From IMG/VR virus record IMGVR_UViG_3300025168_000909, positions 1-20,118 of that record: 20,118 bases of DNA; one strand, given 5' to 3'. The stretch comes from a virus. The notes under the pieces were generated by a model. That model searched no databases, was not told the origin of the DNA, and saw nothing but the letters and a program-made list of their open reading frames with translations. The position numbers were made by a program, and so were the translations under genes. Position 1 is the stretch's first letter, and every line of letters begins with the position of its first letter. Shown piece after piece: positions 1,530 to 16,388 of the stretch.

Positions 1530-1979
1530 TTATCCAAAAACAACTGCGGCGGAGGTATTGGAAAGACCCACCACCATCCAGTCGTCACCATTATAGCATG
1601 CTAGCTGAACCCAGTCGCCCACCGCTGCTCCTCCGGTTTGATCGAAGATAATCTTCGTATCGCCAGCAACGGCAGTATCTTTACCGTTGTGAGCCGTAAT
1701 GTTGCCAACAAAGTCTTGGGTGGCAGAGGCTTGAACAATATCCACATCGGCCGTAGCATTCACAAGCCAAAACGTAAATGTAAGCCCTGTTGCCGCAGAA
1801 GGCAAAGTAACATCGTGTGTAGTCGACCCATCAAGGAAAATAATTTTCCCCGAATCGGCTGCAGTTAAAGTTGTATCTGCGGTAGTCGTCTTAGTCGCTT
1901 GCTTCCGCATTTGAAGCGCATTTTGATTTTCGTTAATCAGGCTCTTAATTCTGGCCCAACCTACTCTCTTTGTTCCCAT
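1530..1979 (-). CDS. Small fibre/decoration-like virion protein with the shared C-terminal beta domain
   Basis: The protein is 149 aa from the ATG at 1979, which has AGGAG 8 bases upstream; a start 12 codons earlier lacks this support. It opens with a basic helix-like segment (GWARIKSLINENQN), then has a beta-rich domain from about residue 35. That domain shows an LTAADSGKIIFLDG strand, VTLPSAATG, and a late YNGDDWMVV motif near residues 129-137. The same order of motifs ends four fibre-like proteins at 5297-9408, but here the domain is almost the whole protein. Such domains are common in phage fibre and virion proteins. It sits between the major capsid gene and the basic 115-aa gene, with a terminator on each side, so it may be an abundant head decoration protein. 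That role is inferred. Confidence 0.85.
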   Translation of the reverse strand: MGTKRVGWARIKSLINENQNALQMRKQATKTTTADTTLTAADSGKIIFLDGSTTHDVTLPSAATGLTFTFWLVNATADVDIVQASATQDFVGNITAHNGKDTAVAGDTKIIFDQTGGAAVGDWVQLACYNGDDWMVVGLSNTSAAVVFG

Positions 1980-2041
1980 AATATATTTCTCCTTATATAA
2001 TATTAATTCGGTCAATTAACGAAAGGATTTCTCCTCTCGCC

Positions 2042-2052
2042 TATAACTAGTT
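2042..2052 (-). promoter_or_regulatory. Recurrent intergenic motif variant (coding strand AACTAGTTATA)
   Basis: This lies about 63-73 bases upstream of the 149-aa gene, just past the major capsid terminator. It differs by one base from the AACTATTTATA form, so it could start a separate transcript of the 149-aa gene. Confidence 0.22.
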
Positions 2053-2063
2053 TTAGACAAACG

Positions 2064-2092
2064 AAAGCCCCCACCTAAAAGGTGGAGGCTTT
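2064..2092 (-). terminator. Rho-independent terminator after the major capsid gene
   Basis: Two 12-base arms (2064-2075 and 2081-2092) pair around a 5-base loop. In the minus-strand RNA the single mismatch becomes a G-U pair, so the stem is continuous, which favours action on the minus strand. It ends in CTTT followed by a moderately T-rich stretch. It starts about 20 bases after the capsid stop codon. Confidence 0.75.
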
Positions 2093-2114
2093 ACATTTAT
2101 TTTGCTACTAGTGT

Positions 2115-3926
2115 TTAGCCAGTTGCGCCGGCTTCACCAATGAGTCCGCGGACGATAACAAGACCGTACATATCAGGACGCACCATTTGCTTGGCATAAC
2201 GCGTCATGACTCCCTTACGGGGTACGAAGTCTTCTGGTCCGAAGATCGTAGGTGTAGTCTGCAGTGGTACGTAAGGTGCGTACACGTATCCGCTTTCAAG
2301 GAAAGAGGAGCCGCGGCGTCCAACGAGAACCACGTTGCGCAGGAAGTATGGGTCAACAATGACGTCAAACTTCTTACTCAACGAACCAACCTTGACGGCA
2401 CCGACAGAGCCAGTCTCGTCATCAGCGGTAACGCTAGCACGGAATCCAGCAGTGAACTCAAGCACGTTGGCGATTTCAGGTCCGCAGACGAGAAAGTTAG
2501 CGCCACCACGCAGAGTCTTACGATGGATCTGGGCAGAAACGTCATTGATTGTCTCAATGAGTGTCTCGTACCACTCGCTCACAGTACCTGTGAAGTCGGG
2601 AGCAGCAGAAGCAGCACCGATTTCAGCACCAGTCTCGCGGTTCAAGAAGAGACCCGGAGAACGCGACCAGTAGTAGGTAGAAGCTGTAGCACCATTCACA
2701 AGGTCCGCAAGGATCTCGCGATCGATTTCAAGAGCAATCTGCTCCGAAAGGATGCTTGTAAGCTCGACCTCTGCATCAAGGTTGTGGTAAGCGTTAAGAT
2801 CCTGTCCTAACTCTGGAGTCCACTTAGCCTTGAGCTTCTTGGTCTGTGCGGTAACAGCGATGCTATCCACCTTGATGTCAATCTCGGGGATCTCTTCGCT
2901 ATTCTCAAGACCCCAAAGAGCAGTACCGACAACCGAGCCAATAGCATTGCTAGCAATGATATTATCCTTGATTGGGAACTGACACATGGCTTCAAGAGAA
3001 CCAAGAGCAACATTCGAGCCAGCAACACCACCAGCACTATCAGCACCGATAACAACGAAACGAACGTTCGAAGAATCTGCGGCGCCTGTCTGCATGGTAA
3101 GACGACGAATCAAGAAGGATTCATCACCAACATTGGTTGCAGTTGTTCCACCACCCTGACCACCGAACGATGCCGAGAAAGCACCAAGGTTCTTAAAGTC
3201 AGCGGGCTGTCCACTCTGGGAACCAGTGAGTACACTACCAGCACACTCAAAGACAGCAACACCAATGCGCTCGCCCGAAGACGAAAGTGCAAGGATGTCG
3301 GGGTCATACTGAAGCCACTTACGACGCTGCGTCTCGGTAGAACCGGAGAGCGAGAAGTTGTCAGCAAGATTCCACTGGGCAGTCTCAACACCGCCGGAAC
3401 CACTTGGAGACGCATAAGCGTAACCACGTGCACCAACTGTGCGAGGACCAGATGCATCAGAACCGGATGTAGCTGTTAAGCTAACACCGCCTGTGATCTG
3501 GGAACCAACCTGTGCTGTACCATAAATGGACTTATCAGCAACGTTACCAAAACGATCTGTCATGGTGTTCGATGCACCAAGGTTTGGCGAGAACACGAAG
3601 TCGAGGAAGAAGATAAGTCCACTAGGGAGACTCATCGGCTGAACGGAAACGAGATCGTTTGCGATCAATCCTGCAAACACACGACGAACGATGGGGAATG
3701 CGACAGCTGCGAAGCCCTCAACATCACCACCAGACATAGTGCTGCTCTCACGAAGAAGTTCCTTGGCTTGATTCTCAAGAAGTCGAGCCATAGCATTCTT
3801 TTTACGGTCACTTGTCAGGCCTTCTAAAAGACCTGTGCGCTCCCACTTTGTTAACAAAGCATGACCTTCGGCGCGCATATCACGGTTAACGATACCTTCC
3901 GTTAACCTTTCAACGATACTAGACAT
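2115..3926 (-). CDS. 23: Major capsid protein (T4 gp23-like precursor)
   Basis: This 603-aa protein builds the capsid shell. The gp23 signature is clear: residues 363-404 run KKLKAKWTPELGQDLNAYHN and continue through a DAEVELTSILSEQIALEIDR segment, and residues 549-590 contain YAPYVPLQTTPTIFGPEDF and MVRPDMYGLVIVRG. The N-terminal 60 residues look like the removable arm of T4 gp23. LRE at 58-60 fits the L/I-x-E site of T4-type prohead proteases and lies near the known T4 cut after residue 65. T4 gp23 is 521 aa; the extra length is mainly a Gly/Ser-rich region around residues 140-310, where the gp23 insertion domain falls. Codon use is biased (GCT Ala, CTT Leu), as expected for an abundant protein. 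The gene has a full-length Shine-Dalgarno site and its own terminator. Confidence 0.97.
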   Translation of the reverse strand: MSSIVERLTEGIVNRDMRAEGHALLTKWERTGLLEGLTSDRKKNAMARLLENQAKELLRESSTMSGGDVEGFAAVAFPIVRRVFAGLIANDLVSVQPMSLPSGLIFFLDFVFSPNLGASNTMTDRFGNVADKSIYGTAQVGSQITGGVSLTATSGSDASGPRTVGARGYAYASPSGSGGVETAQWNLADNFSLSGSTETQRRKWLQYDPDILALSSSGERIGVAVFECAGSVLTGSQSGQPADFKNLGAFSASFGGQGGGTTATNVGDESFLIRRLTMQTGAADSSNVRFVVIGADSAGGVAGSNVALGSLEAMCQFPIKDNIIASNAIGSVVGTALWGLENSEEIPEIDIKVDSIAVTAQTKKLKAKWTPELGQDLNAYHNLDAEVELTSILSEQIALEIDREILADLVNGATASTYYWSRSPGLFLNRETGAEIGAASAAPDFTGTVSEWYETLIETINDVSAQIHRKTLRGGANFLVCGPEIANVLEFTAGFRASVTADDETGSVGAVKVGSLSKKFDVIVDPYFLRNVVLVGRRGSSFLESGYVYAPYVPLQTTPTIFGPEDFVPRKGVMTRYAKQMVRPDMYGLVIVRGLIGEAGATG

Positions 3927-3931
3927 AATTT

Positions 3932-3943
3932 ATCACCTCCTTA
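3932..3943 (-). promoter_or_regulatory. Perfect 12-base Shine-Dalgarno site of the major capsid gene
   Basis: On the coding strand TAAGGAGGTGAT is the exact complement of the conserved 3' end of bacterial 16S rRNA (ATCACCTCCTTA). GGAGG ends 9 bases before the ATG at 3926. Other genes here have only 4-6 matching bases, so this site marks the most strongly translated gene of the window. Confidence 0.9.
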
Positions 3944-3961
3944 TATATAATGATTTTATGT

Positions 3962-5230
3962 TTATTTTATTCCAGCTAGTCTCTTCATCCTATCCTGCAA
4001 GGGATCGGACGAAGGCTTCTCATTGTGTCGAGAAGCACGTATTACAGAAGAACGACGTGTGATTGCCTCGCTCAGTGATTGTGGGCTTTTTGTAGGTTTA
4101 GCCTCCACTGTGCTTTGAAGCGTATCGAAAATCGTTCTTGCTTCTGTAACAGAACCGGCGCGTGAAATAGCTTCGACAATTCTTTCTTTTTGTCGCTCAT
4201 TTAAGGAGGTATTTCTTAATACTCGGTTCGTATAAAGTAGGCGAGCATTCGAAAGGTTTACATCTTGTAAGCCTTCCTTAAGCTGGGTTGTTGCCTCTTT
4301 ATATTGAGAAAGGTGCTCTCTGAGTTGTTTATTTTCAAAAACTAACTCTTCTTGAGCTTTTCTTAAAACTTCTAATTCGTCTTGCATATCGGTGCTCCGG
4401 CGGTGAGCGAGAGCTTTTTCCATCTCCCACTTCTGACTCTCGGAAGAGCGGCCGGCCCAACCAGAAAGGGTTGCACCCATATCAACTGTTAATTTTTCGA
4501 CAATCTCATCTACAAGAAAGTCAAAACTTTCTTCTTGTACATCCGGATCGTCCTTGTCGGCGTCGGCACCATCTGGTACCCCATCACCATCATCATCCAC
4601 GCCTGCGGCGGAGCGCGCTCCATCGGAATAAGGGCCTTTCTTTTCGGCAATTCCATCCATCTGATCTTTATCTGCCTCCGCAGCAGCTGCGGAGCCTGCT
4701 AGGGCAGATCCGCTATTGTCATCATCATCTTCTGCCTCTTCTCCAGCAAAAGAACCAGGGTCATCAACGCCCTCTGCAAGAAGGTCTTCGAGATCTGACA
4801 TTTCAAAATCAAGTTCAGCAGATTCGTCTAGAGTAGCCTGTAGGTCAGTGATGGCTTCCTGAAGGGAGCCAAGATCTAGATTGAACTCAACTTTTTCTCC
4901 ATCCGAAAGATTGCCGCTTAAGCCAGTACCGCTTTTATCGCTAATACCATCGATTGCGGCCAAAGGAACATCGTCGGGATCGACAATTTCTTCGACAGGT
5001 GCATCTCCCGTGAGTGCATCGTCTTCCATCTCGGGCTCCATGGCAGCCTCTTCGGGGGCGCCTATCTCACCTCCCATTGACAAATCCAAATCGTCTTGTT
5101 CTAGGAGCCTTTCCAGCGCCTCTCTCACTTCTACAGAATATTTATCTATAATAGACGCTTCTGCGTTCTTAAGGGCGGCTTCTTTTAATGCCGTGGCATC
5201 AACTATAGCTTCTTTGAGCAAACTAGACAT
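3962..5230 (-). CDS. 22: Prohead scaffold/core protein (T4 gp22-like)
   Basis: This 422-aa protein is very acidic in its first 235 residues and strongly helical with coiled-coil character from about 265 to 375. It is placed directly before the major capsid gene, as gp22 is in T4. The segment NARLLYTNRVLRNTSLNERQ (328-347), followed by KERIVEAIS, is the part I associate with marine T4-like scaffolds. Several L-x-E sites (for example LKE at 5-7 and 15-17) could be cut by the gp21-type protease, as happens to T4 gp22 during maturation. Residues 212-229 contain a DDDGDGVPDGADADKDDP calcium-loop-like sequence. The C-terminus RMKRLAGIK is shared in part with the 430-aa head-operon protein. It is longer than T4 gp22 (about 270 aa). 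AGGAG lies 7 bases before the ATG. Confidence 0.9.
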   Translation of the reverse strand: MSSLLKEAIVDATALKEAALKNAEASIIDKYSVEVREALERLLEQDDLDLSMGGEIGAPEEAAMEPEMEDDALTGDAPVEEIVDPDDVPLAAIDGISDKSGTGLSGNLSDGEKVEFNLDLGSLQEAITDLQATLDESAELDFEMSDLEDLLAEGVDDPGSFAGEEAEDDDDNSGSALAGSAAAAEADKDQMDGIAEKKGPYSDGARSAAGVDDDGDGVPDGADADKDDPDVQEESFDFLVDEIVEKLTVDMGATLSGWAGRSSESQKWEMEKALAHRRSTDMQDELEVLRKAQEELVFENKQLREHLSQYKEATTQLKEGLQDVNLSNARLLYTNRVLRNTSLNERQKERIVEAISRAGSVTEARTIFDTLQSTVEAKPTKSPQSLSEAITRRSSVIRASRHNEKPSSDPLQDRMKRLAGIK

Positions 5231-5261
5231 ACGGTAACTCCTAAAAATAATACCAATTCAA

Positions 5262-5272
5262 AATAAATAGTA
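5262..5272 (-). promoter_or_regulatory. Recurrent intergenic motif (coding strand TACTATTTATT)
   Basis: This sits 32-42 bases upstream of the scaffold gene in a 66-base spacer. It matches the motif in the spacers before the genes starting at 6442, 7890 and 9841. It could be the start signal for a scaffold-capsid transcript, but I see no proof of that. Confidence 0.3.
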
Positions 5273-5296
5273 CGCAAGCGTCCAAAATACCCTGGT

Positions 5297-6442
5297 TCAG
5301 CTTCCTTTGCTGGCAATAAGCCACCAATTTTCACCATCCGACTGGAGCGTACGTGACGAGTAGTTCATTTTGATAATCATTTCCTCGGCAATATCTATTT
5401 TCCCCTCGGTGGCCACTACTTTAACGACCCCTGAATTCAGTTTATATTTATCGCGATTAACTTTCTTCACGATCAAGACTCTTCCGCGGTTATTAACAGC
5501 AGGTGGCAGAGCCACAACAGCTTTGTCTTTACCAGAGTCTATTAAAATAGTGTAATCCCCATCTTGCACAGAGTACTTTTGAGTCTTAACTGTCTTAATA
5601 GCTTGACATACTTGGCCTTGCATTCTAACAGTTCCTAGAAACTCTGCAGTATGATCGTTTTTAATCTTATGCGAGCGCAATGTTCCGTCAAGAGTTAAAA
5701 CCCCATGTTGTGCATTAAAAGTTAAAGCGTTGGAGGATATAAATCCATTTCTCCCTTTTAGCTGGAGCGATCCTATGTCTCCGGTGGGTCGAGGCACTCT
5801 TTCTGAAATGTACCTTGCATGTAAGTTTTTTAATGTTGAGGAGCGAACTTGGTTTAGCGATTCGTCATACACAAAAATTGTATCGTCATCACTTAAGTTT
5901 TGACCATTCTGGGTGATGTCACTGCAAGCTTTAGTATCTAGGGTCAACCTTTGACCTTTGAATGATAAGCCGCTTCGGGGGGCGACGTTGACGTCTATGC
6001 CATCTTCTGTGCACGAAATACCGTCACCAACTTTAACTTGAAGGGCGCCGCGCACACTCATTAGGCCTTGACCAATCTTTAGAGACTCTGCGGGGACCGG
6101 TTCAGAAAATTTAGTGGCCGGCACATTTGTTAAATCAGACGCATCCCCTTGTATTGAAGTAGCCGCCAAGTGAGGAACGTATAATATATCGTGATGGTAT
6201 CTTAAATCATAATGAGAAGAAGCTACATGGTTATCCTGATACACCAATAATCCGTTTGGCGCCGCATTAGAAAGCTCTCGAATGGGCAAATCCCGAGCCG
6301 TTATACAGGGTGCTTTTGCATCGATGTCATAGAACGCGCTAGCACTCACTGTGTTTTTAAATATTTTTACGCCACCTATTTGCTGGTCTGCGTGTTGATC
6401 CACAGAACCCTCTACTTTACCCTTTAAAACATTGTATGCCAT
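5297..6442 (-). CDS. Fibre-like virion protein with the shared C-terminal beta domain (381 aa)
   Basis: The start is the ATG at 6442, supported by GGAG 8 bases upstream; an in-frame start 30 codons earlier would run through the terminator at 6469-6503. The N-terminus MAYNVLKGKV resembles MAYNILSGTV of the 207-aa protein. The middle has fibre-type segments such as GDASDLTNVPA (99-109), GQGLMSVRGALQVKVGDGIS (125-144) and GLSFKGQRLTL. From about residue 285 the C-terminal domain has the shared order of motifs: YSVQDGDYTILID, VVALPPAVNNRGRVLIVKK, then SDGENWWLI at the end. It is probably a trimeric fibre or spike subunit. Whether it sits on the head or the tail cannot be told from the sequence; its place before scaffold and capsid genes hints at the head. 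Confidence 0.85.
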   Translation of the reverse strand: MAYNVLKGKVEGSVDQHADQQIGGVKIFKNTVSASAFYDIDAKAPCITARDLPIRELSNAAPNGLLVYQDNHVASSHYDLRYHHDILYVPHLAATSIQGDASDLTNVPATKFSEPVPAESLKIGQGLMSVRGALQVKVGDGISCTEDGIDVNVAPRSGLSFKGQRLTLDTKACSDITQNGQNLSDDDTIFVYDESLNQVRSSTLKNLHARYISERVPRPTGDIGSLQLKGRNGFISSNALTFNAQHGVLTLDGTLRSHKIKNDHTAEFLGTVRMQGQVCQAIKTVKTQKYSVQDGDYTILIDSGKDKAVVALPPAVNNRGRVLIVKKVNRDKYKLNSGVVKVVATEGKIDIAEEMIIKMNYSSRTLQSDGENWWLIASKGS

Positions 6443-6456
6443 TTTTGATCTCCACA

Positions 6457-6466
6457 GTAAATAGTT
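6457..6466 (-). promoter_or_regulatory. Recurrent intergenic motif (coding strand AACTATTTAC)
   Basis: This lies between the terminator at 6469-6503 and the Shine-Dalgarno site of the 381-aa fibre gene, only 15-24 bases before its ATG. If it is a promoter element the resulting leader would be very short. Confidence 0.25.
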
Positions 6467-6468
6467 GC

Positions 6469-6503
6469 AAAAAAAAAGGATGCCTCCCGTAAAGGAGACA
6501 TCC
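6469..6503 (-). terminator. Strong rho-independent terminator after the 447-aa fibre gene
   Basis: On the minus strand GGATGTCTCC and GGAGGCATCC pair over 10 bp (one G-U pair) around a 6-base loop, followed at once by nine Ts (the + strand A-run 6469-6477). It lies about 43 bases after the stop codon of the 447-aa gene. The G-U pair exists only in minus-strand RNA, which confirms the direction. Confidence 0.92.
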
Positions 6504-6546
6504 AAAGATTTAAGGTAAAGACCCCAAACCAAAGTATAACTTCGGC

Positions 6547-7890
6547 TTAGAGGACGAACCAGGCAAGAGCATCGTAAGCGATGAGCGTAACAGCTGAACC
6601 AGTCGATTCAAGAAGAATCGAAGCTGCAGCTTCAACTGTGTCACCACCAGCAGCGGCGAGGACAAGGTTACCAACACCACCAGAAAGCTTGACAAAGAGT
6701 GTCTTACCAGCGCTAGCGCCAGGAAGAGTGACAGTGCCACCATTAGCAGAAGTGATAAGAGCGAAGTCAGTTCCAGCAGCAATAGAGCCACCAGCAGCAA
6801 CTTTCTCAACATCCTTAGCAACGTCAGCACCAACAATATTATCAACGTAAATCGTAGAGAAACGAAGAGCCGAAGATCCTAAGTTATTAGTGCTATCGAT
6901 AGTCGGTCTAATGTCGGCACTCACAAAAGTAATACCACCAACTTGAAGACCACCAGAACCAGAGATGGTTGTGAACTGAGCAGCAGCTTGAGTGGCTGCA
7001 CCAATAGCAGTGCCATCGATATTACCGCCGTTGATGTCAACAGTAGTAAGTGTCGATGTGCCAGTAGCAGTGATCGCATCAATGTAACCATGGTCGATGT
7101 GTGCTTCAGCAAACTGCTTTGCAGACGAACCAAGATCGATTGCACTATCACGTGCAGGAACCAAATCACCTCCCCACAAGGAGTTGCTACCAATCTGAAG
7201 AACACCAGAGCCAGAAAAGTTACTACCGGAAACAACCGCAGGGGTTGTAGAACCGAGAGCAGCAGGAGCAGCCCAGTCAGCACCGTCAAGCTTGTCAGCA
7301 TTCAGGTTGTCAACTTTGGTTGTCGAGGTAACAGAAAGAGGCGCAGTGCCTGTCGTGATATCAGAGATAAACTGAGTTGCGCGAAAGGTGAAAGCACCAA
7401 TGTCGAGGTTAGCTTCAGCAGTAAGGCCACCAACAGTAGCAGTTCCGCCCTGAAGATCCAGGGAGTTAGCTGTTACAGCGGTAGCGCCCAGAGTTGTTCC
7501 GGACATTGAGGTGAACACAGCAGTACTCGGAGACTCGCTACCGATTGCAACACCGTCGATTTCACCAGCGTTGAAGTAACCAGCAACTGGATCTGCATCT
7601 GTACCAATCTGATCGATATAACCGATCCCGTGGACATACAAGTCCTTCCACTGTTTGCCAGAAGCACCAAGGTCCGCCGCGGCGTCAGCGAGAGGAGAAA
7701 CAGCAGCAGCAAAAGTGGCAGCACCTCCAACCTGAAGAACACCAGAGCCGCTCATAGAAGCAGCGGTAAGAGCACCAGCAAGCGAAATCTTAGCTTTAGA
7801 AGCACCGGAGTGATCGTATACTTCGAGATCACCCTCTTGAATTAAGGAGCCGCTCATACGAGCACCTCCTACTTGAAATTTATAAGCCAT
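6547..7890 (-). CDS. Repeat-rich fibre-like virion protein, probably abundant (447 aa)
   Basis: The protein starts MAYKFQVGGARMSGSLIQEG. Three repeat units hold SGSG(V/G)LQ(V/I)G near 47, 226 and 310, each followed by a (D/N)LG(A/S)S(G/A)...DxI segment. A second repeat, G(E/N)IDG(V/T)AIG followed by a (V/Q)FT(S/T)(M/I)SG turn, occurs at 109-131 and 289-311; this type is common in phage fibre stalks. NADKLDG at 198-204 is another fibre-type motif. Residues 360-447 form the shared C-terminal domain: GTDFALI, GTVTLPGASAGKTLFVK, and an ending YDALAWFVL. Ala is mostly GCT, Gly GGT and Leu CTT/CTC, as in the capsid gene. GGAGGG lies 9 bases before the ATG. It has its own 183-base leader and strong terminator, so it probably forms a separate, highly expressed unit. 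The exact virion location is unknown. Confidence 0.9.
   Translation of the reverse strand: MAYKFQVGGARMSGSLIQEGDLEVYDHSGASKAKISLAGALTAASMSGSGVLQVGGAATFAAAVSPLADAAADLGASGKQWKDLYVHGIGYIDQIGTDADPVAGYFNAGEIDGVAIGSESPSTAVFTSMSGTTLGATAVTANSLDLQGGTATVGGLTAEANLDIGAFTFRATQFISDITTGTAPLSVTSTTKVDNLNADKLDGADWAAPAALGSTTPAVVSGSNFSGSGVLQIGSNSLWGGDLVPARDSAIDLGSSAKQFAEAHIDHGYIDAITATGTSTLTTVDINGGNIDGTAIGAATQAAAQFTTISGSGGLQVGGITFVSADIRPTIDSTNNLGSSALRFSTIYVDNIVGADVAKDVEKVAAGGSIAAGTDFALITSANGGTVTLPGASAGKTLFVKLSGGVGNLVLAAAGGDTVEAAASILLESTGSAVTLIAYDALAWFVL
6835..7752 (-). repeat. Three diverged protein repeats in the 447-aa fibre-like gene
   Basis: The units cover about 7752-7612, 7218-7075 and 6966-6835. Each encodes SGSG(V/G)LQ(V/I)G, a spacer, (D/N)LG(A/S)S, and an aromatic-containing strand ending near DxI. 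The protein is conserved more than the DNA, so the repeats are old rather than recent duplications. Confidence 0.8.
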
Positions 7891-7928
7891 TTATAAAAAC
7901 CCTCCATATTATAGTTTTTTTATGGTTG

Positions 7929-7984
7929 TTGGATAAATGTAGATACACCTATCCAAACCTGAGAATAGAAAAATCTTCTATCTC
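7929..7984 (-). other. Two hairpins in the leader of the 447-aa fibre-like gene
   Basis: The spacer 7891-8073 holds no gene. Two inverted repeats are clear. At 7961-7984 a 9-bp stem (GAG plus ATAGAA arms) has a 1-base bulge and a 5-base loop. At 7929-7956 7-bp arms TTGGATA/TATCCAA enclose a smaller TGT/ACA stem. On the minus strand they fall between the ACTATTTATA motif and the Shine-Dalgarno site, so they could form a structured 5' leader. Neither is followed by a T-run on the minus strand, so they are not typical terminators. A role in mRNA stability is speculative. Confidence 0.45.
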
Positions 7985-7987
7985 GCT

Positions 7988-7998
7988 TATAAATAGTA
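7988..7998 (-). promoter_or_regulatory. Recurrent intergenic motif (coding strand TACTATTTATA)
   Basis: This is the best-placed copy, in a 183-base spacer 98-108 bases before the 447-aa gene. Read on the + strand, the same bases give TATAAATAGTATT, which looks like a T4 late promoter but would point away from the gene. The direction of action is therefore uncertain. Confidence 0.35.
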
Positions 7999-8073
7999 TT
8001 TTTGATACTCTCAAATTAAGTTTTTTTAGCACCGACCACAACCTAGCGCGCCTTTTTCGAACTTTGCACAAAA

Positions 8074-8697
8074 CTAGAATATTCTATAAGATCCGGAAGA
8101 CACATAACATAAGGCTACGGCGCCGAAAGATGATTCGATCTTAATATTCGTTAGGCCATCAATCGTATGAATGTCAAAGCCTTCAACAGTTAAAGTGTTA
8201 GTGCCACTAACGCCGGCTGGCGCTTTAACTCTAACCACGTCTCCAACAGATGCGCTGCTTGGGGTTGTCCATGTTCTCGCAGACGTAAATGTAGCGCTGC
8301 CATAATTTAAACCTACACTTAGATTACCATCAGCATCGCCGATGCCGTAAACAGACAGACGGTTACTTGTTCCTCCAGAACTACTAATCCCGGTGAGCAT
8401 GCTACCATCACCGTAATAAACCGAAGCCGACACACTTAAACTTGCAGTAAGATGGCCAGTTATGTTCATAACCGAACCATCAAACTTTAGGTTTGACTCA
8501 CAAGTTAGGTTATTAGCATCTCCGCCAACATTCGTCAGAATAGAATTATTGGTGGCATTAGAAACGCGAGGAATATTGATGATGGCGGCGCCATCGGATG
8601 TGCTTAAATTACCAGAAACAATATTGCCAACAACCAAGCTGCCCGGTATGTATTCCTGGGCGGCGATGACCGTGCCTGATAAAATATTGTAGGCCAT
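8074..8697 (-). CDS. Fibre-like virion protein (207 aa)
   Basis: The protein begins MAYNILSGTVIAAQEYIPGS, close to the start of the 381-aa fibre-like protein. A low-complexity beta-rich body follows with SNLKFDGSVMNITGHLTAS (68-86) and a YYGDGSMLTGI turn, a motif common in phage and virus fibre proteins. The final 80 residues are a diverged form of the shared C-terminal domain (TWTTPSSASVGDVVRVKAPA, IDGLTNIKI, and an ending SSGSYRIF that lacks the usual Trp). A GGGGGT Shine-Dalgarno-like run lies 8 bases before the ATG. It follows the 230-aa gene by 18 bases and probably shares its transcript. The role as a fibre or decoration subunit is inferred. Confidence 0.82.
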   Translation of the reverse strand: MAYNILSGTVIAAQEYIPGSLVVGNIVSGNLSTSDGAAIINIPRVSNATNNSILTNVGGDANNLTCESNLKFDGSVMNITGHLTASLSVSASVYYGDGSMLTGISSSGGTSNRLSVYGIGDADGNLSVGLNYGSATFTSARTWTTPSSASVGDVVRVKAPAGVSGTNTLTVEGFDIHTIDGLTNIKIESSFGAVALCYVSSGSYRIF

Positions 8698-8715
8698 AGA
8701 TCACTACCCCCTATA

Positions 8716-9408
8716 CTAGAACACGAACCAATGGGATCCATCTGTATATAGGTTAATGGCGGGCATTGTGCCAGTAAGCGCATAGTCAGCGCGGCCATCA
8801 ATTTTATTACTTGTTCCAACAGCCGCCGAAACTTGTACGTAAGTAGAACCTCTATCTCTGAATTCGTCCTTAATGACAAGGAGAGAACCCACTCCTACTA
8901 CTGATGCGGTAGGAAGATGCAGCACTTGATGGCCAGAACCACTACATCCAATAATATAATCGGTGTTATTTAAGTTAGAGTTGGCAGTAACTCGCCTGTA
9001 GCCTCCTCCGAACGCTCGGACATGAGTGCGCCGATTGGTCACCGAGGCGCTCAAAATATAAGCCCCTCCAATAGCTGATACAATCAGGCTTCCTGTGCGC
9101 TCATGCATGTCATCGTTAGAGTTACCAAAAAACGTTGATCCGGTGGCATCGATGTTTGTTACATTCTCATAATGAATCTGACTAGCACTCAATGCACCAG
9201 TCAAAATCATATTACCCGACAAGATCAATGTAGAAGGTTGATACCCAGTATATATCCCAGCAGAAGCCGTGATGTATGTTAGCATCATCGAGCCGGTCGT
9301 GCTTGTGGCAGCCGAAGAAGTTACGAACTGAAGCGACTGTGCGGGGCCCGCAGCGGAACCATCAGTCGATCCAGAACAGTTTATAAATGCCCAGCCAAAT
9401 CTAGCCAT
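8716..9408 (-). CDS. Fibre-like virion protein with the shared C-terminal beta domain (230 aa)
   Basis: The protein starts MARFGWAFINCSGSTDGSAA and is rich in Ser, Thr, Gly and Ala. LILSGNMILTGALSASQIHY (81-100) is a typical fibre-stalk repeat. The last 95 residues are the clearest copy of the shared C-terminal domain: NNTDYIIGCSGSG, LHLPTASVVGVGSLLVIKDE, ASNKIDG-like TSNKIDG, and the ending LYTDGSHWFVF. This domain ends many phage fibre proteins and may help trimerisation. AGGAG lies just before the ATG and overlaps the stop of the 142-aa gene, which points to translational coupling. Confidence 0.85.
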   Translation of the reverse strand: MARFGWAFINCSGSTDGSAAGPAQSLQFVTSSAATSTTGSMMLTYITASAGIYTGYQPSTLILSGNMILTGALSASQIHYENVTNIDATGSTFFGNSNDDMHERTGSLIVSAIGGAYILSASVTNRRTHVRAFGGGYRRVTANSNLNNTDYIIGCSGSGHQVLHLPTASVVGVGSLLVIKDEFRDRGSTYVQVSAAVGTSNKIDGRADYALTGTMPAINLYTDGSHWFVF

Positions 9409-9412
9409 CTAA

Positions 9413-9841
9413 CTAAACTCCTACAGAGCCAGAGAAGTTGGGTCCTAAAGTGCCAGAAGTTCTTTGTCTGGGAATAGTAGTGAGACCAGAAACCACATCG
9501 CACGTTCCTGCCGTGGCGCCATAAAGCCAAATATTAGAAACCTTCATCTCATAAATGTCAGACTTTCCAAAACCACCAGATCCGCTAGGAGGGACTGTAA
9601 AATAATATTTATCTCCTTTGTCTGAAGTTTTTGCGCCTGTAACGCCAGCTGCAGAGAAACCCACTCGTAAGTCTGAAGCTCCTCGATTAAAGACTTGGAA
9701 CCAACGACTAACATATGGCAAGTCAACCAAGCGCGCTGTAGTATCATAAATGACACTAGCGCTAGCAAAAGGGCGTCCGCTGACTTGGTATGCAGGGACA
9801 TTATTGATCCCTACTTCCATTTTCCAATAGTTGCCGCTCAT
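9413..9841 (-). CDS. Virion-type beta protein, unrecognised (142 aa)
   Basis: The sequence is beta-rich with aromatic strands: NVPAYQVSGRPFASASV (14-30), LPYVSRWFQVFN (41-52), DLRVGFSAAGV (57-67) and a final GLTTIPRQRTSGT. I associate this pattern with small virion proteins of marine T4-like phages but cannot name a family. GGAGG 7 bases before the ATG supports the start. A copy of the recurrent ACTATTTATA motif lies 29-38 bases upstream and overlaps the stop of the bS21 gene, so a transcript may start here. The gene heads the block of fibre-like genes, which suggests a related role such as attachment protein or decoration protein. Confidence 0.75.
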   Translation of the reverse strand: MSGNYWKMEVGINNVPAYQVSGRPFASASVIYDTTARLVDLPYVSRWFQVFNRGASDLRVGFSAAGVTGAKTSDKGDKYYFTVPPSGSGGFGKSDIYEMKVSNIWLYGATAGTCDVVSGLTTIPRQRTSGTLGPNFSGSVGV

Positions 9842-9869: not shown

Positions 9870-9879
9870 TATAAATAGT
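9870..9879 (-). promoter_or_regulatory. Recurrent intergenic motif (coding strand ACTATTTATA)
   Basis: This lies 29-38 bases before the 142-aa gene and overlaps the TGA stop of the bS21 gene. It marks the border between the tightly packed head-assembly operon and the fibre block. Confidence 0.32.
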
Positions 9880-10124
9880 CACTTATTATTCCTATTCCGT
9901 CTTTCTTGCGCTCTTTGTTTTTTAAGCCTTTCTCTCTGGCGTGCTCTTTCTGCGCGTGCACGCTTTTCTTTCTTGGCAACAGAAGGCTTTTTGTAGCGAC
10001 GTCGATCTTTTACCTGTTCGATGATACGTTCTTTCTTTACTTTCTTGTTAAACTTGCGAATCATTTTTTCGTTATTGCCGCGACATTCGCGCGATGTTAC
10101 AGATACATTTATTTTTTTGCTCAT
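9879..10124 (-). CDS. rpsU: Phage-encoded small-subunit ribosomal protein bS21
   Basis: This 81-aa, extremely basic protein matches the bS21 pattern. Residues 19-58 (EKMIRKFNKKVKKERIIEQV, then KDRRRYKKPSVAKKEKRARA) follow the order of E. coli S21, where a Lys/Arg-rich helix leads to a Y-x-KP turn and a second helix. It is about 10 residues longer than E. coli S21, mainly at the Arg/Gln/Lys-rich C-terminus. bS21 sits on the 30S platform near the 16S 3' end and helps mRNA recruitment. Viral bS21 genes are known from marine and freshwater phages. Here the gene is in a head-assembly operon, 7 bases after the 141-aa gene, with TAGGA serving as both stop and Shine-Dalgarno site. It probably enters host ribosomes late in infection; the effect on translation is inferred. 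Confidence 0.9.
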   Translation of the reverse strand: MSKKINVSVTSRECRGNNEKMIRKFNKKVKKERIIEQVKDRRRYKKPSVAKKEKRARAERARQRERLKKQRAQERRNRNNK

Positions 10125-10131
10125 TTTATTC

Positions 10132-10557
10132 CTATTTCATTGCTTTCCAAATTTGTGACGCACCACCCAAAAGCGATGAGATGTCTACACCAGCATCACC
10201 AGGGTTACCCAAATCAACAGTGCCTGCTTTGGGGGTCGAGGATTCATGGGCCGTCATAGCCTCTGTGCCTTCAAAAAGATTAACACCATTGTATGCGTCA
10301 GAGCCGACTGATTTCATAAGGTTTTGGCGATGTTCTTGCATTTTCTTCCGGGTCTGTGCCGCTTTTTGTTTTTGCGGAGGGTTCCCAGTAAATAGAGAAT
10401 CGTTAGATTTTTGCTGTGTTTCGACAACAAGATTGCCCTGCATGCCTTTGGCCACCTCGGCCACAACATTCGAAAGAAGACCCTCTTCGATGAGAACTTC
10501 ATGAATGCACTCTTTAACGAGCGGCTTGATTAATTGTTTTAAGTCTGATTTCTTCAT
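10132..10557 (-). CDS. Head-operon protein of unknown function (141 aa)
   Basis: The first 40 residues form an amphipathic helical segment (MKKSDLKQLIKPLVKECIHE, then VLIEEGLLSNVVAEV) like those I associate with proteins of uncultured marine myophages. The middle is charged and Gln/Lys-rich (PPQKQKAAQTRKKMQEHRQN), and the C-terminus ends DISSLLGGASQIWKAMK. The start codon overlaps the stop of the 430-aa gene (ATGA), so the two are probably translated together. LIE at 22-24 would suit the prohead protease. It is probably a minor core or internal head protein, but I do not recognise the family. Confidence 0.78.
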   Translation of the reverse strand: MKKSDLKQLIKPLVKECIHEVLIEEGLLSNVVAEVAKGMQGNLVVETQQKSNDSLFTGNPPQKQKAAQTRKKMQEHRQNLMKSVGSDAYNGVNLFEGTEAMTAHESSTPKAGTVDLGNPGDAGVDISSLLGGASQIWKAMK

Positions 10558-11846
10558 TTTATTCCTGCTAATAGTTTCCAGTGATTGAGTATTTTTTGTT
10601 CATTGAGATTGCGATCATCATCATCGGCGTAGTAGGCTAACCTTTTTTTCTCTTTGTCATATTTCATTTCTAGAACGTCTCTAATTTCGTCTAATGTAAA
10701 ACCGGATTTCTGAGCGTAGGTTTTAAATTTTTCAAGGTTGTTGGCGTTCTCGAAAATGGCGTCGAAGAGTTTAACGGTGTCTCCGGACGGATATTGTTCC
10801 GCCCATTTGGCGATTTGCGTGTTAGCTCCACTCCATATCCTATCGAGCGTTCTTGCATTATCAAGCAACAATCTCTTCCGGATCCTGATCACTTTTTGTG
10901 CCGGTGTTTCATCTTCATCTGGAGCCCTAGTGTCTTCTTCGGGTTCTGGTTCTGGCTCTTCTGTGGGCTCTTCGGGTTCTGGTTCTGGCTCTTCTGTGGG
11001 ATCTTCCTTTTTCTCGCCCTCGGAATCGCTGCGGGTGGTCGAAAGTGTGGCGCCCAAGGAGGCGACGCGCTTTTTAGCTGTCGCCTTTAAGGCATGTGCT
11101 GTCGCGCGGTGATATGCGGCTGCCTTCATGGCTTTGACCCGGCGCGCAATAACCTCTCGATATTTGACCAGCTCCTCTTTAGATATCTTGCCGGCATCCG
11201 CAGCTGCAGTCGCTTTGGCAAGAAGTTGAGTTGCTATCTTTTGGGTTTCTGCGTTAATCTGCTTTTCCATAGCTACCCTTTGGTCCAGCAAGCTTTGCTC
11301 TTTTTTCTTTTTGACTTTAGCTTCAGATGTGGTGGTGGACTCACTGTCACTGCGGCCGAAGGATGACGCAGCTCGATCCACGAGCCCCAGCAAGCTGTCT
11401 ACTCCAGGCAACGAACCAAAAATATCCGTTGGCAGCTCATCATCAGTTGCAGCAACTTCAAGGGTCGATTCCTCTTCGGACGCTCTAACTTCCATGGCTG
11501 CCATCTCATATGAGTCTTCTAGTTCTCTGGCAACGGCCGCTCTCCGAGCTGGAGAAAGTGTAGCGAATCCGGCCTGAACGTGGCCGGTCCAATAGCCGCC
11601 GTACATAAAGTCGCGAGCGCTCTGGACTGCTTCGGGTACATACTTTATAACGACGCTTAGCAGGAATGGGAGTGCCTGCTTGAGGACTTCACCTCCCATC
11701 TTCAAAGCGGCCTTTCCGACCATCCTCCAATCGATTTCGCGCAACAGCTCTTCATCTTCAACAGCAGTTACTTCTTCCTCGTTGACAAACTCACGCCATG
11801 CGTCGAAAGTTGCTTTATCGTCGTTAAAGCTGCTCCAATCACTCAT
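10554..11846 (-). CDS. Large charged head-operon protein, possible internal/core protein (430 aa)
   Basis: The N-terminus MSDWSSFNDDKATFDAWREF is followed by an acidic stretch and a helix with hydrophobic character around 55-75 (LKQALPFLLSVVIKYVPEAV). Residues 185-270 are Lys/Ala-rich and helical, then comes a Pro-Glu region (about 280-305) made by a 33-bp tandem duplication, and a helical C-terminal domain. The last residues NHWKLLAGIK share LAGIK with the scaffold. The gene starts 8 bases inside the protease gene and overlaps the 141-aa gene by ATGA. This position beside the protease, the charge pattern and the C-terminus suggest an internal head or core protein. No known family is recognised, so the role is inference. 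Confidence 0.8.
   Translation of the reverse strand: MSDWSSFNDDKATFDAWREFVNEEEVTAVEDEELLREIDWRMVGKAALKMGGEVLKQALPFLLSVVIKYVPEAVQSARDFMYGGYWTGHVQAGFATLSPARRAAVARELEDSYEMAAMEVRASEEESTLEVAATDDELPTDIFGSLPGVDSLLGLVDRAASSFGRSDSESTTTSEAKVKKKKEQSLLDQRVAMEKQINAETQKIATQLLAKATAAADAGKISKEELVKYREVIARRVKAMKAAAYHRATAHALKATAKKRVASLGATLSTTRSDSEGEKKEDPTEEPEPEPEEPTEEPEPEPEEDTRAPDEDETPAQKVIRIRKRLLLDNARTLDRIWSGANTQIAKWAEQYPSGDTVKLFDAIFENANNLEKFKTYAQKSGFTLDEIRDVLEMKYDKEKKRLAYYADDDDRNLNEQKILNHWKLLAGIK
10936..11001 (-). repeat. 33-bp tandem duplication encoding a Pro-Glu repeat
   Basis: Two adjacent 33-base units (10936-10968 and 10969-11001) differ at only their last base. Each encodes 11 residues of the type PTEEPEPEPEE. 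DNA identity this high points to recent slippage or duplication within the 430-aa gene. Confidence 0.92.
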
Positions 11847-12444
11847 CGTCCAAAACCTCGTTCAATAATCTATTGATACGATCGGCTTTGGTGAATACGT
11901 GATTGTTGAAGTTCTTGGCCTCTTGCATCATAAATGCGTTTGGTGTCGACGGCTCTGACACAAAATCAAAACAAATAAGCTGAAAGTCATCCTCTACAAT
12001 CGTTTGGCCTGCGCTCTCGCTTACAGAGCCCATGCCGCGAGAAGAGATTCCAAGTTTAACGCCAGATTCTACAAGCGACTTAAGTATGCCACCTGAAGGA
12101 GTGTCAAGTACCTTAACTTTCCCCATCACATTCTTCTGGTCCCACCATACATCAGTTACCATATGCGATGCATTCTTTAAGTTGATGACCGAATCCTCGG
12201 GATGATCAAGTTCACCGAGTGCTCTGCGTTCTTGCACGAGCTTTTGGTAGTTTTTCATCTCGCGCATTAAAACCCGGTGAGGATATACTCTGCCGTTTCC
12301 GTTTTGAACGTCAGCTTCTTGAAGCTTTCCAGACAAAATCATGCCGCCGTTTGCCACGTATCTCTTTTCCTCTTCGGTTAAAAGATCTTGACAAACGCCG
12401 CCTTCGCAGAGTTCATAGTATTCTCGTAAGAGCTTCTTGCTCAT
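11839..12444 (-). CDS. 21: Prohead maturation protease (T4 gp21-like)
   Basis: The protein is 201 aa, close to T4 gp21 (212 aa). The fold family is that of herpesvirus-type assemblin proteases. Visible motifs are NGRVYPHRVL (50-59), LGELDHPEDS (76-85) with the probable catalytic His81, and GISSRGMGS (132-140) with a probable catalytic Ser at 134 or 135. A CFDFVSEPSTPNAFM segment (158-172) also fits the family. It cuts scaffold, capsid precursor and core proteins at L/I-x-E sites during head maturation. AAGGAT lies 8 bases before the ATG. In T4 the scaffold gene follows directly; here about 6.6 kb of other genes intervene. Confidence 0.95.
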   Translation of the reverse strand: MSKKLLREYYELCEGGVCQDLLTEEEKRYVANGGMILSGKLQEADVQNGNGRVYPHRVLMREMKNYQKLVQERRALGELDHPEDSVINLKNASHMVTDVWWDQKNVMGKVKVLDTPSGGILKSLVESGVKLGISSRGMGSVSESAGQTIVEDDFQLICFDFVSEPSTPNAFMMQEAKNFNNHVFTKADRINRLLNEVLDDE

Positions 12445-13566: not shown

Positions 13567-14383
13567 CTTCAAATATTTCCTTTACTAGTTGCTGTGTTTT
13601 TAATACAGTCAGGAGCATCTTATCATTAACAGGCTCTGCTTTAAACGAATCAAAACGCTCTAAAATGCTTTTAGCTTTCTTTAGCATTTCAGGATCTTGC
13701 TTGATAATATCGCCACCCATAGACTTTTCTAAAGCCTCGCGGAGTCTGGTTAGCTCGCAATTCAAAAACACCTTCAACTCTAATCCATTATTTACAAAAG
13801 ATGAAATATAGTGTTCCAGCAAAGTTTTCTGCTCACTCAATAGAGAGTTGTTATATTTATTATTAAATTTGGCAACAAAAGATTTATAAACCACATCATC
13901 TATTTCGCCAACTGGTGCGCTTTGTGTGGGGGTGCCACTCATATCAGATAGCAGCTGCGTTTCTAGCATAACTCTTTGCTTGGGAGAAGACTTGTCAGAA
14001 AAGATGTGGTATATTGTTGCAAGAGTGCGATAGTTAGGAACAAAAGTATTATAAAAATCTCTTTCTATTTCAACATTAACATCTTTAATGAGATCACTCT
14101 GTTTCACGAACAGACCGTGGGCATCAAGCAGACGGCTAGCTTGTTTAGCCTCTATGAGAATTCTTTCGGCAGTTCTCTGATCAATGTTCTGATTTTCGTA
14201 CAAAGAACGATAGCAATCTAAGTGTTGCTTTAAAATCGACCCTTCCTTAAAGTGTTTCTTGAGCAAAGACACCGCTATTTTATGACGTCTTTTGTCTTTC
14301 TTCATCGCTGCTACTGTAACTTCGCGTACGAGAGACTCGTAAATAAAAGCAGTATTTCTTTTTTTATTATGCCTTATCTTCAT
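13550..14383 (-). CDS. Helical head-operon protein of unknown function (277 aa)
   Basis: The ATG at 14383 has GGAG 6-7 bases upstream, which makes it a better start than the TTG five codons earlier. The protein is basic at its N-terminus (MKIRHNKKRNTAFIYESLVR) and almost wholly helical, with charged heptad-like stretches such as LLKKHFKEGSILKQHL. It overlaps the portal gene by 17 bases and the next gene by 17 bases, so the three are probably coupled in translation. Its place directly after the portal gene suggests a head core or portal-associated factor. I do not recognise a family. Confidence 0.78.
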   Translation of the reverse strand: MKIRHNKKRNTAFIYESLVREVTVAAMKKDKRRHKIAVSLLKKHFKEGSILKQHLDCYRSLYENQNIDQRTAERILIEAKQASRLLDAHGLFVKQSDLIKDVNVEIERDFYNTFVPNYRTLATIYHIFSDKSSPKQRVMLETQLLSDMSGTPTQSAPVGEIDDVVYKSFVAKFNNKYNNSLLSEQKTLLEHYISSFVNNGLELKVFLNCELTRLREALEKSMGGDIIKQDPEMLKKAKSILERFDSFKAEPVNDKMLLTVLKTQQLVKEIFEDADRS

Positions 14384-16388
14384 TCTTATTCTCCACAAGT
14401 ATATTGTCTTTTTTCTCTAAACCTTCTAGAAGAGTGCGAATAGTACTGTTCAATTCAAACAACTTCTGCTCTTCAACTGTTTCTGTCATTGAATAAATAG
14501 ATTCATTTTGTTCATAAATACCTCTTCCTGCCGATGGCATCGCTAAAGTATTTAAGTCGGTGAGGCCTGGGACGGTATTTCTAGTAGTACTAGAAGATTT
14601 TTCTTTTGACCATTGGCTTTGCATATGGCGCGTCCTGGCGCCCCTTCCTCTTCTATCTCTTTTGACTGGTTGGTACACTTTTCCTTTGGATCCGGGTGTT
14701 AGTCGCGGTGAATCTCTAGAGCCTGGAGGCACTGCTAAAAGAGAAGAATCATCCCCGCCCCCCGTGTCTGCTGATGCATCACCGGCGGGCATCTCTTCTG
14801 GACCTCCCAGATCAAGACCTCCTTCTTCGCCACCAAGTTCTCCGCCAAGATCACCTCCCAGATCGCCACCCAGATCGCCACCAAGATCTCCGCCTAGGCC
14901 ACCGCCTTCGCCAGCAGCTGCAGCTTCAGCAACTGCTTGCAGTGACGCGTCATGTTTGCGATCGTAGTACATCTCTCGTTGATTGCGAATAAACTCTTCA
15001 TTAGACATACCAAATATATGTTCAGTGACCCAGCGCCGCGAGAAGAAGCCTTCAGTGGCGGAACCGGCAATGTCAAACTTCTGCTTCCAGTGCTCAATCT
15101 CTTGAAGTTCTGCGATCTTTGAAGGGTTATTGAGAGAGAGGCCAAAAGATAGTAGATCGTCGCCGCGGAAACCCAACGTATATAAGTGGATGATACCAAC
15201 CTTCTCAAGTTCTGACACGATGACTCGCTGCAATCTTTGGATCGTTCTCGCAAAACGAATGTCTTTTTGAGCTAGCGTAGTCTTATCTTCGGCGGCGCCT
15301 TCGCCCATAGCGAGATATGCTTGGGGTATTTTTAATGCAGAAAAGAGCTTATCGCGGAGATACTTAATATCATCAATCGCTGTAATGTTTTGGGCGCCGG
15401 CAAGAGATGTAATCTCTGTCGCGGATCCTGCACGAACAGGGATGAAATAATCTTCTTCAATAGACATCGGATTATAGCGTAGATCGACTCGACCAGATGT
15501 AGGATCTACTACCGAGTGGCGTTTAAGTTGCGTTACAATCTTTTGCATGTACTGTTCGACTTCATTGGGAGGCACGGCGCCGACATCAATCTTAAACACT
15601 CGGCGTTCGGACGAACGCACTACACGATAAGCCATCATGGCGTCTTCCATAAGAACCAATTGGCGCCAGATGCGACGAGCAGGTTCTAAAATAGAGGTGC
15701 CGTATGGAGCATATTTGTCATTTCCCAAAATACGGAAATGACAAACCTGCCAGTTCTCAAATGTCATACCCGCGGAGTTCCATTGATATTGCACATAGTT
15801 AGGGTTGGTGGAATCCATACCTTCTAGTCTTTCAATCTCTGAACTGGGAAGCGCAATAACCGATTGAACTCCGAACTTATCATCAATATCTAAATAAAGA
15901 AAGAAATCTCCATACTTACACATTGTTCTGGCCCAACCAAAAAGATTATATTGAGCGTTAAGGATGTTGTCATAAAGAATCGCCAACACCGCCTTAATTT
16001 CTTCATTCGGACATTTGATATTAATCATAGGACGTAAATCAGAATATGTTGTCATTTCATCTGCATAAATATCCATTGTTGATGCAATCTCTGGCATATA
16101 CTCCATTTGGTCAAAGTCAACATAGCGCTCGTTTCTGCGCTGATTTGCAATAGCATTTGTAGCAATATTATCTAAAGGATTATATAGGCTCTTTTTGAAC
16201 TGCTGGCCGCTGGCTGTTTTAAATCGTGAAGAAAACTTATCTAGATGTTGACGTCGAATGCGGCGGCCGGTCTGCGAACGATAGTTTATAATCGGTCCTG
16301 AAAACAACCGAGTCAAGGCCTTAAACAATGTAGACTGTTGGTTGGCCGGGTTTTTACCTTGTGATTTGTTGCGGTTCTTTGGTGCCAT
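14367..16388 (-). CDS. 20: Portal protein (T4 gp20-like) with a long C-terminal extension
   Basis: The portal forms the 12-fold ring at one capsid vertex through which DNA is pumped. This 673-aa protein carries the gp20 core: MEYMPEIASTMDIYADEMTT (95-114), YAPYGTSILEPARRIWRQL (226-244), ERRVFKIDVG (261-270), SIEEDYFIPVRAG (309-321), the LAGAQNITAIDDIKYLRDKL segment (329-348) and LKIPQAYLAMG. T4 gp20 is 524 aa. Here the extra length is mostly C-terminal: an Ala/Gly-rich start, the (LGGD)n repeat at 498-529, then a Ser/Arg-rich linker and an acidic helical end. The terminase gene is just upstream, with 8 bases between them. Confidence 0.95.
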   Translation of the reverse strand: MAPKNRNKSQGKNPANQQSTLFKALTRLFSGPIINYRSQTGRRIRRQHLDKFSSRFKTASGQQFKKSLYNPLDNIATNAIANQRRNERYVDFDQMEYMPEIASTMDIYADEMTTYSDLRPMINIKCPNEEIKAVLAILYDNILNAQYNLFGWARTMCKYGDFFLYLDIDDKFGVQSVIALPSSEIERLEGMDSTNPNYVQYQWNSAGMTFENWQVCHFRILGNDKYAPYGTSILEPARRIWRQLVLMEDAMMAYRVVRSSERRVFKIDVGAVPPNEVEQYMQKIVTQLKRHSVVDPTSGRVDLRYNPMSIEEDYFIPVRAGSATEITSLAGAQNITAIDDIKYLRDKLFSALKIPQAYLAMGEGAAEDKTTLAQKDIRFARTIQRLQRVIVSELEKVGIIHLYTLGFRGDDLLSFGLSLNNPSKIAELQEIEHWKQKFDIAGSATEGFFSRRWVTEHIFGMSNEEFIRNQREMYYDRKHDASLQAVAEAAAAGEGGGLGGDLGGDLGGDLGGDLGGELGGEEGGLDLGGPEEMPAGDASADTGGGDDSSLLAVPPGSRDSPRLTPGSKGKVYQPVKRDRRGRGARTRHMQSQWSKEKSSSTTRNTVPGLTDLNTLAMPSAGRGIYEQNESIYSMTETVEEQKLFELNSTIRTLLEGLEKKDNILVENKNEDKA
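14802..14897 (-). repeat. 12-bp repeat tract encoding (LGGD)n in the portal tail
   Basis: The units encode LGGD four times, then LGGE twice, then degenerate copies ending DLGG (residues 498-529). Neighbouring 12-base units differ by one to three bases, for instance GATCTTGGTGGC and GATCTGGGTGGC. The tract is likely to vary in length by slippage and to act as a flexible linker. Confidence 0.88.

Follow-up and report, generated by a model that had tools for sequence, protein, structure and literature searches.

Gene content of the locus

The window analysed here is the complete 20,118-base record, a linear fragment from an uncultivated T4-like phage. All genes under discussion lie on its minus strand. 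The open reading frames of five proteins, designated A to E, are present at the positions below, each with an ATG start and without internal stops. The locus is listed from high to low coordinates; CTD denotes the C-terminal domain described in the following section.

14367-16388, minus strand: T4-type portal, from family searches
11839-12444, minus strand: prohead protease of the T4 gp21 type (PF03420, 2.5e-31)
9879-10124, minus strand: bS21-like ribosomal protein gene (PF01165, 7.4e-9), upstream border of the cassette
9413-9841, minus strand: F142, conserved, the next gene upstream of slot A
8716-9408, minus strand: slot A protein, 230 aa, with the conserved start MARFGWAYxxC and the CTD at residues ~145-229
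8722-8976, minus strand: slot A CTD (XD1-type), HMM boundaries
8074-8697, minus strand: slot B protein, 207 aa, start MAYNILSGTV, with a CTD of the C-slot type
8086-8304, minus strand: slot B CTD, HMM boundaries
6547-7890, minus strand: slot C protein, 447 aa, start MAYKFQVGGARMSGS, with a hypervariable stalk
6556-6765, minus strand: slot C CTD, HMM boundaries
5297-6442, minus strand: slot D protein (D381), 381 aa, start MAYNVLKGKVEGSVDQ, with a conserved N-terminus, an adenovirus-fibre-like shaft and the CTD
5939-6064, minus strand: slot D short paired strands, residues 127-168, resembling the shaft repeats of adenovirus and Afp fibres
5312-5602, minus strand: slot D CTD, residues 281-377, confidently modelled
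3962-5230, minus strand: probable scaffold (gp22 position), from its position and from relatives just before MCP; it forms the downstream border of the cassette
2115-3926, minus strand: major capsid protein, MCP (gp23; PF07068, 4.8e-72)
1530-1979, minus strand: E149, short spike, with a predicted N-terminal helix (residues 3-22) and a beta domain; its gene directly follows that of MCP

The earlier note had placed four of these genes between those for the protease and the scaffold. This arrangement was borne out, with the name "scaffold" being a positional one: family searches with the 3962-5230 gene gave no match, and it is so named because it lies directly before MCP and has relatives at the equivalent place. 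F142 matched no known family in family searches and has no CTD; its gene is duplicated in some relatives (L034:2130-3058; L178 and L179). A bS21-like gene within the head operon was seen in 93 loci. Since such genes adjoining capsid genes are known from Bacteroidetes phages (PMC9723584), the one at 9879-10124 gives a weak hint of the host.

Comparison of the five window proteins with curated families gave no reliable direct match. Slot C produced weak matches to tail spike families (End_tail_spike, 0.0016, 19 bits, below the cut-off of 25), and the shaft of slot D matched the profiles of 8uur, 9qgo and 8on5 weakly (0.0025-0.011), its strand pairs being modelled with medium confidence. Beta-helix depolymerase families were not found in A, B or D by family searches. 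Among isolated phages there were no close relatives of A, D or E, and matches of slot C were limited to its repeat motifs.

A C-terminal domain common to the five proteins

Relatives of the phage (80) were fetched by their capsid protein, and profiles were then built. Plain pairwise BLAST within the window linked the C-termini of A and D (1e-5) and, weakly, the N-termini of B and D (0.02), with C and E not significant. When iterated HMM searches were seeded with A, B, C or D, each recovered the other three, with values no weaker than 1e-10 in the final round. Comparison of family profiles connected D with A (96%, 2.6e-9), D with B (98%, 4.7e-15, N-terminus included) and A with C (86%, 4.6e-6). 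The CTD profile also matched the E profile (82% probability, 1.1e-5), as against 0.5% for the unrelated neighbour F142 used as a control. An iterated search seeded with E reached A, D and B only after several rounds, in which profile drift is possible. On the strength of these iterated searches and profile comparisons, the CTDs of A, B, C and D constitute one sequence family, to which E is a related but distinct and more distant member of the wider kinship.

The claim that five genes end in a common beta domain therefore withstands profile-profile comparison, with E at a distance. Two finer points of the earlier note also hold: the start MAYN(V/I)L(K/S)G(K/T)V common to D and B is real and conserved, and the Trp is indeed missing from the 207-aa copy, whose CTD belongs to the C-slot type.

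Predicted fold and known relatives of the domain

A CTD family profile of 67 members was compared with solved structures. It matched gp34, the long tail fibre of T4 type (8e-8 as the sum of several weak stretches), the baseplate protein gp10 (1.7e-5) and residues 96-169 of TSP4 of phage CBA120 (2.8e-4), a stretch inside the region 80-178 that has been named XD1 (PMC8825819). In PHROGs, the profile led to baseplate and proximal tail-fibre families. The Pfam model of the T4 gp9/gp10 N-terminal domain, PF07880, was matched by 10 of the 67 family members (best 9e-6) and gave no direct match with window proteins A to E; a PF07880 search of the long relatives was silent, with all controls equally silent.

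Structures were modelled as single chains. The D381 model is highly confident in the CTD only (residues 281-377, pLDDT about 94), its N-terminal half being of low confidence. Its fold search returned a tailspike depolymerase, TSP4 (7rfv, 1e-4), T4 gp9 (1qex, probability 0.99), StcE (4dny, probability 0.95) and the capsid spike of Pseudomonas phage Pa223 (9ny6_C, 9.9e-5). The E149 model is good over its whole length (mean pLDDT 90); the solved structure that E149 fits best is the same chain of the Pa223 spike (5.6e-6), which it also matches by sequence profile (2.8e-5), and the depolymerase matched by D381 comes next. PDB entries 9ny6_C and 24qj were thus matched by both the D381 CTD and E149, the two models not having been superposed on each other. 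A fold search of a viral library gave 316 matches at 0.001 or below, which shows the fold to be very common and not exclusive to capsid spikes.

Profiles and models together identify the CTD as a predicted beta sandwich of the XD1 / T4 gp9-gp10 N-terminal type. The XD1 fold has also been described for gp9 and gp10 and for glycan-binding domains in StcE and CpaA, and its function has been called not yet fully understood (PMC8825819). The domain is widespread, already well known in kind and not new; its arrangement is the remarkable part. It resembles PF07880 and XD1 of TSP4 in predicted fold and, at the level of the family profile, in sequence, but here it occupies the extreme C-terminus and occurs in four paralogous head-operon genes, and the window proteins themselves gave no match to the Pfam model. 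Likewise, the Pa223 spike is the best solved structure for E149 and among the best for D381, but Pa223 is a podophage with a 295-aa spike, whereas here a T4-like phage carries E together with four longer fibres.

Order of the slots in related phages

Slots were assigned in relatives by profiles of the slot-specific N-termini, an interval being the stretch bounded by the S21 gene and the scaffold. All 44 distinct complete intervals kept the order F-A-B-C-D, with no violation. Most of these held all four slots, some had an extra fibre after D, and five had A only. Slot A was present in 44 of 44, a frequency that is uninformative because many of the loci were anchored on slot A. Of the 35 relatives that were chosen by capsid protein alone and have 2.5 kb or more of sequence ahead of the scaffold, 31 carry one or more CTD fibres there and 19 carry three or more. 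A fixed-order, conserved and large set of fibres in the head operon is the unusual feature of these phages.

The CTD was restricted to the cassette in the contigs searched: a profile search of contigs of 107-187 kb, which are possibly incomplete and in which remote copies could escape, found no further clear copy outside it. One weak extra match (3.6e-4) lay after MCP in G008, at the place of E-type genes. The nearest isolates by MCP, Flavobacterium phage immuto and Microcystis phage Mel-JY01, had neither a CTD nor a slot N-terminus in the genes checked around protease, scaffold and MCP, and the cassette is therefore not general to the wider group.

Exchange and conservation of the domain

The earlier note had spoken of several exchangeable subunits. 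We found that in 239 of 249 cases the best partner of a CTD belonged to its own slot. A CTD tree of 182 rows, built on a short alignment and with many unresolved forks, required 7 changes of slot label, where the minimum is 3 and shuffled labels need about 99. Free exchange of CTDs was rejected on these figures. The exceptions were few: window B and four relatives carry a C-type CTD (support 99), the slot B CTDs from L074 and L150 fall among C types, and the slot A CTDs from L018 and L060 among B types. Because CTDs mostly stay with their slot, "exchangeable subunits" turns out to be mostly wrong; the slots are distinct, with their own conserved N-termini, a fixed order and few CTD transfers.

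We also considered a hypervariable, receptor-binding CTD, and conservation did not support it: mean CTD identity is 35-48%, a moderate value unlike that of a fast-evolving tip. In C (20%) and D (38%) it is the stalk that varies, and in A and B the N-terminus, stalk and CTD are similarly conserved. This distribution would suit a CTD that is a mere trimer-closing cap devoid of binding function, with specificity lying in the stalks, as would the apparent role of XD1 as a spacer in TSP4, gp10 and gp9 (PMC8825819). On the other hand, the distal face of a domain placed at the C-terminus remains free, and glycan binding is known for this fold in StcE and CpaA (PMC8825819). In our estimate a mere cap falls only a little short of an even chance. 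As a cap would fit any location in the particle, this estimate does not compete with those given below for head, tail and neck.

Location of the fibres in the particle

Because the CTD fibre genes lie inside the operon that builds the capsid, several kinds of adhesion fibre are probably carried on the head. A position of A to E on the capsid or its vertices is the most likely of the readings, with about even odds. The following observations argue for it: 1) linkage of the cassette to protease, scaffold and MCP is strict across the 44 distinct complete intervals; 2) E adjoins MCP and has a capsid spike as its closest solved fold; 3) the baseplate module with gp6 and gp25 is found at another place, in G003 at a distance of tens of kb, and five long relatives have a giant LamG protein near it; and 4) profile searches of the 107-187 kb contigs showed clear CTDs at this locus only. 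Against it, the nearest sequence relatives of the CTD, namely gp34, gp10 and TSP4, are tail or baseplate proteins, no capsid-binding motif was identified in the slot N-termini, and the position of a gene does not by itself fix that of its protein in the virion.

That kinship with tail-fibre and baseplate proteins is why a tail location has to be weighed, in which A to D would be tail fibres or baseplate spikes, perhaps a branched four-protein complex, with genes that merely reside in the head operon. The Ackermannviridae tailspike complex TSP1-4 offers a precedent: as here, there are four spike proteins with gp10-like domains, which in CBA120 form a branched complex on the baseplate (PMC8825819). 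The stalk of slot C has DLGSS-type repeats known from tail fibres, and searches of six long relatives showed no S74 or Collar tail-fibre domain at other places. However, TSP1-4 are enzymatic spikes with the docking domains XD2/XD3, and neither XD2/XD3 nor a depolymerase body was found here; the sequence match is confined to XD1, with no docking-type XD2/XD3 by sequence in the A, D and CTD profiles. The locus is moreover strictly linked to protease, scaffold and MCP and distant from the baseplate genes, which have a LamG protein near them, and E, next to MCP, has the capsid-spike fold. We regard a tail location as rather unlikely.

Still less probable, to the point of being doubtful, is that A to D are whisker-like fibres of the neck or portal vertex, assembled with the head and sitting at the collar. 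The head-operon location would agree with this, as would the distinct fibre types, and the N-terminal motif common to B and D could mean one anchoring ring. But the neck-like gene, recognised by position only, lies on the opposite side of MCP, and searches of families and solved structures gave no fibritin-like match.

Returning to the capsid, the earlier proposal of a head-fibre or decoration system stands in that the family is real, is conserved inside the head operon and includes, in E, a capsid-spike fold; it falls short in its exchangeable subunits, and its placement on the head has about even odds. Capsid fibres of phage 7-7-1, whose proteins were not identified in the study that describes them, are head-borne and make the first host contact, as proposed here; unlike in our proposal, they bind the flagellum, with one fibre per vertex (PMC12796354).

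Proposed function

We propose that the five proteins are trimeric fibres or spikes of the virion that end in an XD1-type sandwich. A to D would form an ordered, non-interchangeable set, each anchored at its own site by a short slot-specific N-terminus and capped at its free end by the CTD, which would close the trimer; the stalks in between differ greatly in length. By analogy with related domains, the CTD may also bind surface glycans. E would be a short spike with its N-terminal helix as anchor. Fibres on the capsid or its vertices would make the first, reversible host contact, and final binding would fall to the baseplate's own giant lectin-domain protein.

A candidate for the latter is present in relatives. 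Five long relatives with an A-to-D cassette have a LamG protein of 3.7 kaa near the baseplate module, and G002 has a 2-kaa frame with LamG. The protein of G003 (84127-95151; L098:7127-18151), 3674 aa long, adjoins baseplate genes, and other long relatives have counterparts of similar size.

Other lineages, in which the cassette is changed, have different proteins just before the scaffold instead of a CTD fibre: LamG lectin-like proteins of 1018 aa, with four domains (L055:5616-8672), and of 378 aa (L060:7542-8678), and a propeller-like protein (L035:6714-7721). Such proteins in this gap favour an adhesion function of the locus.

Tentatively, and with somewhat less than even confidence, we suggest that a large uncultivated T4-like clade possesses, on its heads, an adhesion system made of four to five different, position-specific fibres that share one domain; it would be encoded between protease and scaffold by a cassette of fixed order and be distinct from the tail adhesin. 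The head fibres that we found described in the literature are of one kind per phage. If the suggestion is true, the capsids of this clade, which has no close cultured relatives, would be multi-purpose adhesion surfaces with four distinct fibres and a short spike. The fixed slots further predict that the N-terminal 45-100 residues of each slot have a specific binding site on the particle. Both the type of domain and the type of structure are known; their arrangement here is unusually large and conserved.

Other features of the head operon

In one relative (L048), two MCP genes stand in tandem, at 4826-6646 and 6720-8555. Three minus-strand head-operon proteins of the window, those of 10554-11846, 10132-10557 and 3962-5230, have similar C-terminal peptides (HWKLLAGIK, IWKAMK and RMKRLAGIK, in that order). 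In immuto, Mel-JY01 and RM378, the protein at the scaffold position ends in WQKLAGIIK, MKKLAGIVK and IKRLAGL, respectively. This common C-terminal peptide of head-operon proteins may be a signal for entry into the prohead.
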